Assembly (NCBI RefSeq): GCF_030067705.1
Contig: NZ_JASJEX010000003.1
Location: forward strand, 186,001 to 250,000
DNA length: 64,000 nucleotides
Source: Kribbibacterium absianum
GTDB lineage: Bacteria > Actinomycetota > Coriobacteriia > Coriobacteriales > Atopobiaceae
Direction: 5' to 3'
Position 1 is the stretch's first letter, and every line of letters starts with the position of its first letter. Below are positions 3,880 through 58,393 of this stretch, one piece after another. A model generated the notes under the pieces. It did not search any database. It saw nothing but the letters and a program-made list of their open reading frames with translations, and had not been told where the DNA came from. A program made the translations under genes and the position numbers.

Positions 3880-3990
3880 TGGACGCTTCGGTCAAAGCGA
3901 AATGTCCACGCTCCAGCCGGGCGCAGCGTGGACAAACAGCTCTCTCCGAAGCGTCCAACCGTGGACAAGCGGCTCTCTCCGAAGCGTCCA
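3880..3990. repeat. 29-nt palindromic repeat array, locus A1 (3 units)
   Basis: Three 29-nt units at 3880-3908 (forward), 3929-3957 and 3962-3990 (both inverted). Each begins TGGAC and ends GTCCA, with an inner GCTT...AGC pairing. The first gap is 20 nt and the second is 4 nt. The forward unit and first inverted unit can form a long hairpin. The array lies in the divergent gap between the antiporter and trpF. Bases 3765-3879 and 3991-4135 hold no gene that I can see. Confidence 0.9.
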
Positions 3991-28237: not shown

Positions 28238-28255
28238 GAGCGCATCGTCCGCGCC

Positions 28256-28366
28256 TGGACGCTTCGGTCAAAGCCATTTGTCCACGCTCCAGCCCGCGAC
28301 AGCGTGGACAAACGGCTCTCTCCCAAGCGTCCAGGCGTGGACAAACGGCTCTCTCCCGAGCGTCCA
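28256..28366. repeat. 29-nt palindromic repeat array, locus A3 (3 units)
   Basis: Units at 28256-28284 (forward), 28305-28333 and 28338-28366 (inverted). The gaps are 20 nt and 4 nt, the same layout as the locus before trpF, and the 20-nt spacer is nearly the same sequence (both begin CGCTCCAGCC and end CAGCG). It lies between paralogues 1 and 2 of pepC. Confidence 0.95.
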
Positions 28367-44482: not shown

Positions 44483-44544
44483 TGGACGCTTCGGTCAAAG
44501 CCAAATGTCCACGGTTGGACAAATAGCTTTGACCGAAGCGTCCA
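44483..44544. repeat. 29-nt palindromic repeat pair, locus A5 (2 units)
   Basis: Units at 44483-44511 (forward) and 44516-44544 (inverted) with the 4-nt spacer CGGT. They are nearly complementary over the full 29 nt, giving the simplest form of the hairpin. It lies between the LacI gene and argC, about 110 nt before the argC start. Confidence 0.95.
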
Positions 44545-46857: not shown

Positions 46858-46952
46858 CGGACGCTCCGGTCAAAGCCATTTGTCCGGGGTTGGACAGTTG
46901 GCTCTGACCGAAGCGTCCAGCCGTGGACAAGAAGCTTTGACCGAAGCGTCCA
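46858..46952. repeat. 29-nt palindromic repeat array, locus A6 (3 units, between argJ and argB)
   Basis: Units at 46858-46886 (forward, ends CGGAC/GTCCG), 46891-46919 and 46924-46952 (inverted), all with 4-nt spacers. The first unit starts 3 nt after the argJ stop and the last ends 30 nt before the argB start. Confidence 0.95.
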
Positions 46953-56681: not shown

Positions 56682-56780
56682 GAGGTCCCCTTTCTGGGAT
56701 GCTCCGGGTCGCGCGGACCCTTGATTCCGGTTCCAAACGTCCCTCGGGATGGTAAGGTCTCCCTGAAGTTCGTTTGTTGG

Positions 56781-56813
56781 TTTGTATCATACAAAGTGAC
56801 AAATCGGAGGCAA
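56781..56813 (-). promoter_or_regulatory. deoC promoter overlapped by a GntR-type operator
   Basis: The perfect palindrome TTTGTATCATACAAA (56781-56795) covers the minus-strand -10 TATGAT (56791 to 56786); TTGCCT (56813 to 56808) is the matching -35. The palindrome is a plausible site for the divergently encoded GntR protein. Confidence 0.75.
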
Positions 56814-56851
56814 CTGCCTGTTCAGCAGGTATGAAGGAAATGAGGAGACCG

Positions 56852-57658
56852 ATGGACGCTCCGGGCATCTTGTCGTCGTTCTCGGTGTCGAGAGCGAGCA
56901 CCACGCCGCTCTACCAGCAGCTTTACGAGTTCCTCTCGCTGCAGGTCAGGCTCGGAGCGCTCCAGCCCGGTGACCGCATGCCCACGGAGGAGGAGATGTG
57001 CGACGCCCTCGGGGTGAGCCGTTCCACGGCTCGTCAGGCGCTGGCGTTGCTCGTGGACAAGGGCGTCGTCGAGCGGTTTCGCGGCAAGGGCACCTTCGTG
57101 GCGCAGCCGGCCAGCTATCACCGGTCCATGAGCCATCTGTACAACTTCTCTGCGGACATGGAGGAGGCCGGCCGCGTGCCGTCGTCGCGCACGGTGGTGC
57201 AAGAGGTCGTGACGGCGGACGCGGGGGAGCGATCGACACTCGAGCTGGTGGCGCCGCAGGCGCAGGTGTTCCGCCTGTGCCGCGTGCGACAGGCGGACGG
57301 TGCCCCCGTGCTCTACGAGGACACCCGGTTGCCGCTCGCGCTGTGTCCGGGGATCCAGGACCTGTCGTTCGACGACGCGTCCCTGTACGCGGCGCTGCGC
57401 GACGACTACGGGCTGGAGCCCGCCTCGGCCGTCGAGACGATGCGCGGCGTGCTCTTGCCGGACGACGTCTGCGGGCTCTTGGGCTGTCCGTCCGGCACCG
57501 TGGGCTACCGCATCGAGCGCGTGGCGCGGCTCTCTTCGAACGTGGTCTACGAGCACACCCAGTCCTACGCACGCGCGGATCTCGTGGCCTATCGCTTCGA
57601 GCTGGGGAACCTCGGCGCGGGCGCCAACGGCGCGCGCATGACGCTCGCTGGGACGTAG
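56852..57658 (+). CDS. GntR/HutC family transcriptional regulator
   Basis: A 268-residue regulator. The winged helix (about residues 14-82) has TTPLYQQLYEFLSLQVRLG, MPTEEEMCDALGVSRSTARQAL and VVERFRGKGTFVAQP. The UTRA-type sensor has VFRLCRVRQADGAPVLYEDTRLPL and EHTQSYARADLVAYRFEL. It is divergent from deoC with a palindromic operator between them, so control of deoxyribose or nucleoside use is likely. The ATG at 56852 follows GAGGAG; the frame is open upstream to 56774. Confidence 0.9.
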   Translation: MDAPGILSSFSVSRASTTPLYQQLYEFLSLQVRLGALQPGDRMPTEEEMCDALGVSRSTARQALALLVDKGVVERFRGKGTFVAQPASYHRSMSHLYNFSADMEEAGRVPSSRTVVQEVVTADAGERSTLELVAPQAQVFRLCRVRQADGAPVLYEDTRLPLALCPGIQDLSFDDASLYAALRDDYGLEPASAVETMRGVLLPDDVCGLLGCPSGTVGYRIERVARLSSNVVYEHTQSYARADLVAYRFELGNLGAGANGARMTLAGT

Positions 57659-57690
57659 GCGCCGCAGCCAACTGCTCCGCTCATGTTCTG

Positions 57691-57898
57691 CCACCCAACC
57701 CGGGGTCTCAGGTGTCCTCGGTGCCCTTCTATGGACGGGTTGGGTGGTAACCCTGCACCCCACCATCCCCCAACCCCTTCATGCGCGGCTGCCATACCCG
57801 CCCCAGACACGGGTTGGGGGGTGGTGCCCTCGCGTCTCACCACCCAACCTGGCTCCGAATGACGGATAAGGCCCACGTGGGGCATGGGTTGGGTGGTG
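57691..57898. repeat. Three consecutive long hairpins with shared CCACCCAACC arms
   Basis: Three inverted repeats in a row: 57691-57702 with 57736-57747 (12 bp, perfect, 33-nt loop); 57761-57776 with 57811-57826 (16 bp, one G-U, 34-nt loop); 57838-57849 with 57887-57898 (12 bp, perfect, 37-nt loop). All arms carry CCACCCAACC or its complement, while the loops are unrelated. They fill the 366-bp gap between the GntR gene and the Spx/ArsC-like gene. No T-run follows any of them and no gene is seen. Confidence 0.9.
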
Positions 57899-58024
57899 AA
57901 TCAAGCCCTCGGACCCGCGTACTGGCGCCACGGATCTATCCAGAGTGCGGTTGCAGCAGCCATGCGTCCCTGTTGCCGGTAGGCTAGAGCCCGTCAGGCA
58001 CATCCATAGAGATGGAGGTAACCC

Positions 58025-58393
58025 ATGGCCGACGTGCTCTTCGTCGCCTATCCCCGCTGTTCCACTTGCAAGAAGGCCCAGAAATGGCTCGACGAGCGCG
58101 GTGTGGCGTACACGCTCCGCGACATCGTTGAGGAAAACCCGAGCGCCGAAGAGCTGGCCGCTTGGCTCGATGGCAGCGACCTCGCGCCTCGCAAGCTCTT
58201 CAACACAAGCGGGCGCCTCTATCGCGAGCGCGGCCTCAAGGCGCAGCTCGATGCCGGCATGAGCGTCGAGGACATGTTGGCGCTGTTAGGGGAGGAGGGC
58301 ATGCTCGTGAAGCGCCCGCTCCTCGTGGTCGACGGCACGGTGCGCGCCGCAGGCTTCCGGGAGCCGGCCTGGACAGAGGCCCTCGGTCTCTAG
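58025..58393 (+). CDS. Spx/ArsC (YffB-like) family protein
   Basis: A 122-residue thioredoxin-fold protein of the Spx/MgsR/YffB group. The N-terminal redox motif is YPRCSTCKKAQKWL with Cys12 and Cys15 (CxxC, as in Spx-type proteins; classical arsenate reductases have a single Cys here). RDIVEENPSAEEL, KLFNTSGRLYRE and the cis-Pro region VKRPLLVVDG follow. A role in oxidative stress control or thiol chemistry is likely; arsenate reduction cannot be excluded. The start follows GGAGGTAACC. No ars genes are adjacent. Confidence 0.85.
   Translation: MADVLFVAYPRCSTCKKAQKWLDERGVAYTLRDIVEENPSAEELAAWLDGSDLAPRKLFNTSGRLYRERGLKAQLDAGMSVEDMLALLGEEGMLVKRPLLVVDGTVRAAGFREPAWTEALGL

Follow-up and report, generated by a model that had tools for sequence, protein, structure and literature searches.

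A species-specific, helically phased triple-palindrome element at gene 3' ends in Kribbibacterium absianum and its putative role as a docking array

The window analysed here is a stretch of 64,000 nucleotides of Kribbibacterium absianum (assembly GCF_030067705.1, contig NZ_JASJEX010000003.1, positions 186,001 to 250,000 of the forward strand). Near its right end, three inverted repeats follow one another (57691-57899); they lie between the genes for a GntR/UTRA regulator and an ArsC-family protein. The locus comprises the following features.

56774-57658, plus strand: GntR/UTRA regulator, upstream neighbour; its stop codon lies 30 bp before the array
57688-57751, no strand: palindrome unit 1; perfect arms 57691-57702 and 57736-57747 (12 bp, 33-nt loop); AA/TT steps at 57697-57698 and 57740-57741
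57741-57772, no strand: link from unit 1 to unit 2; AA steps 32 bp apart (3 turns of the helix); spacer unlike the other spacers
57763-57826, no strand: palindrome unit 2; perfect arms 57767-57776 and 57811-57820 (10 bp, 34-nt loop); AA/TT steps at 57772-57773 and 57814-57815
57815-57846, no strand: link from unit 2 to unit 3; AA steps again 32 bp apart
57837-57900, no strand: palindrome unit 3; perfect arms 57837-57849 and 57887-57899 (13 bp, 37-nt loop); AA/TT steps at 57846-57847 and 57889-57890
58025-58393, plus strand: ArsC-family protein, downstream neighbour; its start lies 125 bp past the array

This bears out the description given in an earlier note, which had been made from the letters of the window and had reported three long hairpins in a row; the arms measure 10-13 bp and the loops 33-37 nt. 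Successive units start 74 and 75 bp apart, the expected number of related patterns in shuffles of the window is 0.00, and the region folds better than its shuffles (z = -3.6). The earlier note was also right that the array carries none of the usual signatures: neither a T-run nor a plausible gene was found inside it, and an Rfam search returned no match above gathering.

The earlier note described this array alone. The genome holds seven such arrays, all of them intergenic, with 21 units in total, and each is built of exactly three palindromes of about 60 bp that recur with a period of 74-75 bp.

C3:243688-243900: array, the window copy
C1:74483-74693: array, intergenic
C2:136019-136229: array, intergenic
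C2:603130-603342: array, intergenic
C3:407165-407377: array, intergenic
C3:421573-421784: array, intergenic
C5:134232-134444: array, intergenic

The copies were found by a one-mismatch search with the arm, by a relaxed scan and then by a covariance model built from 18 units; the array on C5, left out of model building, was recovered blind. Searched with this model, the genome yielded no single palindrome copy below an E-value of 0.1. Six arrays lie 0-30 bp past a stop codon, at the 3' end of a gene: a class IV aminotransferase (ilvE-like), recR, a TauE-family exporter, a 6-pyruvoyl-tetrahydropterin synthase, crcB and the GntR gene. Two arrays sit between convergent genes, and the seventh (C2:603130) is close to a contig end, where the gene context is uncertain. 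A T-run directly behind the array is absent from all seven sequences on inspection, and the remaining arrays gave only miRNA matches at chance level in Rfam. Searches of open-licence papers on these organisms and on repeats of this type brought up no account of the element, and two REP surveys make no mention of Coriobacteria; to the extent of that literature, the triple-palindrome element is previously undescribed. Other repeats in the same genome include a long CRISPR array with the repeat GTCGCCCCTCGCATGAGGGGCGTGGGTTGAAAC from C2:440001 on (L246 1-8000) and, directly after the C2:136 array (L043 1037-1180), a repeat ATTCGGGGCGAAYCTGC of which two copies lie about 72 bp apart. The view of this genome beyond the element came from sampled stretches, and array families of other kinds may occur elsewhere in it.

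Which parts of the element are constrained? The arm core, CCCAA-N-CC / GG-N-TTGGG, is near-invariant in the 42 half-sites. Arm pairing reaches 85.7% of cells, compared with 79.9% in shuffles, and modest covariation is present, with 21 arm cells changed on both sides against 13.4 in shuffles. When the 3' arms were permuted among all hairpins, the observed pairing was reached in 96 of 20,000 trials, and in 545 of 20,000 when they were permuted within arrays. The compensatory-change test proposed in the earlier note, run here on the copies within this one genome, is thus modestly positive. Contrary to that note, the loops are not unrelated. In a common register they are 34-35 nt long, and all 21 share a weak, degenerate profile that has two-fold symmetry and a tract of A or T at its centre; its motif score is 209, whereas shuffled loops score 141-159. 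The profile is equally common to all loops regardless of array, position or orientation (mean pairwise z 0.84 +/- 0.08), so it is not a trace of recent duplication, of which the loops carry no homology signal; with recent common descent thereby lacking, the arms and the lengths look selected. The suggestion of a repeat family with variable cargo is weakened accordingly, since no relatedness specific to an array or a position accompanies the shared profile. Both halves of every palindrome match one degenerate profile up to the centre, where little pairing occurs beyond a few columns and the central tract is anti-complementary. Such a profile, common to two halves that do not pair centrally, is as expected of recognition by a two-fold symmetric protein. 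The spacers between hairpins are unrelated in sequence and free to vary.

The distances within the arrays, by contrast with the spacer sequences, are fixed. In all seven arrays each unit has its AA steps at a distance of 42-43 bp, and from one unit to the next the distance is 32 bp at 13 of 14 junctions and 31 bp at one; 42-43 bp and 32 bp correspond to four and three turns of B-DNA. The A+T content of the arrays is periodic, with a peak at 10.5-10.75 bp and a z of about 12, a value that derives from few conserved features and overstates the independent evidence, because the signal rests on the arm AA, the centre tract and the period. At 10.6 bp the arms alone give a z of 8.7 and the loops alone 5.2, with matching phases, and the spacers alone display no A+T phasing. 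Since the lengths between half-sites are fixed and the intervening sequence is free, the geometry is presumably that of double-stranded DNA, which points to a protein-docking array. Constant lengths with free sequence would follow from a protein complex assembled along one side of the DNA duplex; RNA hairpins on single-stranded linkers have no need of them.

We therefore read the arrays as docking sites for a putative sequence-specific DNA-binding protein, at a probability of roughly one in two; we infer the binder, its binding and its effect. This was the best fit among the three suggestions of the earlier note by virtue of the whole-turn spacing and the 10.6-bp A+T phasing, the binder itself being putative. 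How might such an array work? Six half-sites with the core CCCAA-N-CC alternate in orientation at intervals of 4, 3, 4, 3 and 4 turns of B-DNA, which puts every one of them on the same face of the double helix. We envision that a putative sequence-specific protein docks as dimers on the three palindromes, that the dimers bind cooperatively along this face, and that the phased A/T steps and central A-tracts ease bending, such that a compact nucleoprotein complex of about 200 bp might form. This complex might serve chromosome architecture or topology, or might function at the 3' ends of genes as an insulator or a roadblock. The compensatory arm changes count against the docking of a protein, because a dimer site has no strict need of them. 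The arrays are best read as a species-specific chromosomal element, helically phased and located at gene 3' ends, whose docking role is putative.

Could the occupant be a known wrapping enzyme? The arrays might be BIME-2-like docking sites for DNA gyrase or another enzyme of this kind, whereby the phased A/T steps would let DNA wrap and positive supercoils would be absorbed at gene 3' ends. In Escherichia coli, the gyrase motif is symmetric, spans about 130 bp and varies periodically in G+C at 10.75 bp, and BIME-2 repeats show an enrichment of gyrase cleavage sites (PMC6379681). The present arrays likewise are symmetric, phased at 10.6 bp and mostly adjoin gene 3' ends, and they display the symmetry and the roughly 10.7-bp phased G+C variation of a gyrase site, as judged on their A+T period of 10.5-10.75 bp and their symmetric units. 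Gyrase, however, reads a degenerate G+C pattern, whereas CCCAA-N-CC is here near-invariant, and the spacing of the arrays is exact to the base pair. We thus consider gyrase or a similar enzyme an unlikely occupant.

Alternatively, the arrays may belong to the mobile repeats, of REP/REPIN-like or MITE-like type, with a RAYT (REP-associated tyrosine transposase) recognising their hairpin arms. The 2.2-Mb genome encodes five Y1_Tnp (PF01797) proteins, the genes of which are located as follows.

C3:393265: Y1_Tnp gene
C1:174277: Y1_Tnp gene
C5:60009: Y1_Tnp gene
C1:153992: Y1_Tnp gene
C4:32287: Y1_Tnp gene

Mobility would also suit an element that is intergenic and missing from the ilvE-hisS gap of relatives with that gene order. 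REPINs have conserved ends, a less conserved spacer and compensatory changes (PMC3116915), and conserved ends and compensatory changes of this type are found here as well. None of the five Y1_Tnp genes, however, is flanked by CCMCCCAACC hairpins, and at least three of them adjoin hairpins of other sequence. A cognate RAYT gene flanked by the same repeat is thus missing, and a RAYT/REP origin was rejected on the grounds that the arms are absent from the flanks of all five RAYT genes. Nor do the arrays resemble REPs and REPINs in number and uniformity. Those are short, near-identical palindromes present in many copies, for the most part alone or in pairs; the 21 units here are highly diverged and form few copies (seven), always triple and never single. 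The invariant GT[AG]G tetranucleotide at the hairpin foot was not found in the 42 half-sites. Taken together, a mobile repeat appears improbable. Several of the Y1_Tnp genes adjoin distinct hairpin repeats of their own, for example GTGACAAAATGCTCTGACCCC and GTGCATTTGGGGAC. A second dispersed hairpin family (TGGACGCTTCGGTCAAAGC...) occurs in the window at 3880-3957, 28255-28345, 44483-44544 and 46867-46943, and since it is also present beside the Y1_Tnp gene at C1:174277 it is probably the REP of that RAYT.

A further possibility is a transcribed 3'-UTR element, in which three tandem hairpins would act as terminators lacking a U-tract or as mRNA stabilisers. Its appeal lies in the position of six of the seven arrays 0-30 bp past a stop codon, in the ordinary terminator-like hairpins that relatives often carry in their gaps before hisS and nth, and in the better-than-shuffled folding of the region (z -3.6) combined with modest arm covariation. 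An intrinsic terminator, however, consists of a GC-rich hairpin followed by a U-tract, and no U-tract is present here; terminators require neither an exact length between hairpins nor an arm sequence common to seven loci, and no known structured RNA family of Rfam matches. At the level of the RNA itself, arm mismatches show no G-U excess (4 G-U against 5 A-C in columns 4-14) and the loops fold no better than shuffles (mean z -0.19 +/- 0.20). The idea of a structured RNA, raised in the earlier note, hence loses ground on loops and G-U pairs and retains the compensatory changes between arm pairs; we hold a 3'-UTR role to be rather doubtful. Integron attC sites have the consensus RYYYAAC ... GTTRRRY, which resembles the arms here, and some arms read ACCCAAC ... 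GTTGGGT, but an identity of the arrays as attC-like recombination sites is largely refuted and very improbable, given that the AAC ... GTT core is not invariant (position 12 is C, A or G in both arms), that most units end in GTTGGGG instead of GTTRRRY, and that there are no cassette genes in the array.

How far does the element extend beyond this genome? At an E-value of 1e-4 the arm model found no match in the family, of which 139 other genomes were searched, or in 395 others of the class sample. In the nearest relatives it gave weak matches (in G015, G072 and G039), each of which is an isolated, unrelated hairpin or part of another array. A plasmid collection yielded nothing. Pattern scans over 84,980 species and viral contigs returned, among genomes, only chance matches or unrelated repeats; apparent arrays in Nitriliruptoraceae and Oscillatoria proved to be near-identical tandem copies of other repeats. 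The ilvE-hisS gap of four relatives that keep the gene order (G040, G041, G018 and G072) does not contain the element; it is either empty or occupied by hairpins, some of them terminator-like. Relatives differ in gene order upstream of nth, and most have ordinary terminators there. In the ilvE-hisS gap of G072 (L205 1260-1390), where the genome of the window has a triple array, a long hairpin with arms GACTCCGCCCATATACCTCAG encloses a terminator-like hairpin.

The closest relative, G039 of a sister genus (HisS 83% identical), carries arrays of other palindromes. A detector blind to arm sequence, which recovers all seven known arrays, was run on sampled stretches of G039 and revealed different tandem palindrome arrays, among them hairpins of CTGGCATGGG with a spacing of 52.5-53 bp, hairpins of TGCGGAG spaced by about 42 bp and palindromes of the CCAAC-N6-GTTGG type. 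When the whole genome of G039 was searched by pattern, 24 matches were obtained in the forward direction and 2 in the reversed control. The forward matches include the longest array, of eleven palindromes with spacing alternating between 53 and 52 bp; its spacers are 59% identical, so it is in part a diverged tandem duplication and its regularity is partly inherited. A locus of G039 at C1 about 966060 (L302 16060-16480) has some nine tandem hairpins that have diverged from one another; their arms are (G)TGCGGAGT..ACTCCGCA and their period is about 42 bp. Stretches of G046/G047 held one 53-bp pair and one 85-bp pair. Across nine array families the mean cosine of the spacing peaks at 10.5 bp (0.72), which speaks for the docking reading; since the arrays were picked by eye from the detector output, this is suggestive and not a formal test. 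The arrays of other palindromes in the sister genus are spaced mostly by whole helical turns. Several spacings there are off (50, 55.5 and 46.5 bp), and these, like the partly inherited regularity of the longest array, count against that reading.

Intergenic palindrome families have mostly been explained as REP-type mobile repeats or RNA hairpins. We tentatively raise a different scenario, speculative at this stage, of a fast-evolving nucleoprotein system in bacteria. Within a single family, several genera would each maintain a palindrome sequence of their own, arranged in intergenic arrays of multiple units with spacings tuned to whole helical turns, and a putative architectural or insulator protein would bind these arrays, its specificity co-evolving with the sites. 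As to the element described here, a sequence that drifts while the three-unit number and the helical spacing stay would mean that selection acts on the geometry of the double helix, and would point to an uncharacterised DNA-binding protein and to a system by which these bacteria organise or insulate their chromosome in a sequence-specific manner. For finding the putative binder, the seven arrays are ready baits.

Among known systems, the arrays resemble the BIME-2/REP clusters of E. coli, which likewise group palindromes between genes, for the most part at 3' ends, and may have a role in DNA topology. E. coli REPs, however, are high-copy palindromes of 20-40 bp with a GTAG-type foot and a cognate RAYT, whereas here seven low-copy arrays each have exactly three palindromes of about 60 bp at fixed helical spacing, and a cognate RAYT was not found. 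With the REPINs of Pseudomonas fluorescens SBW25 they share inverted conserved ends, a less conserved spacer of constant length and compensatory changes; those REPINs are mostly single, number hundreds of copies and form clusters that are near-identical tandems, whereas the present arrays are always triple and strongly diverged. The centromere-like sopC of plasmid F consists of 12 near-identical 43-bp repeats at one plasmid locus. Like the arrays, it has regular inverted half-sites at near-whole helical turns, and it seeds a nucleoprotein complex; unlike sopC, the element described here places three diverged units at each of seven chromosomal loci, for a binder that is putative.
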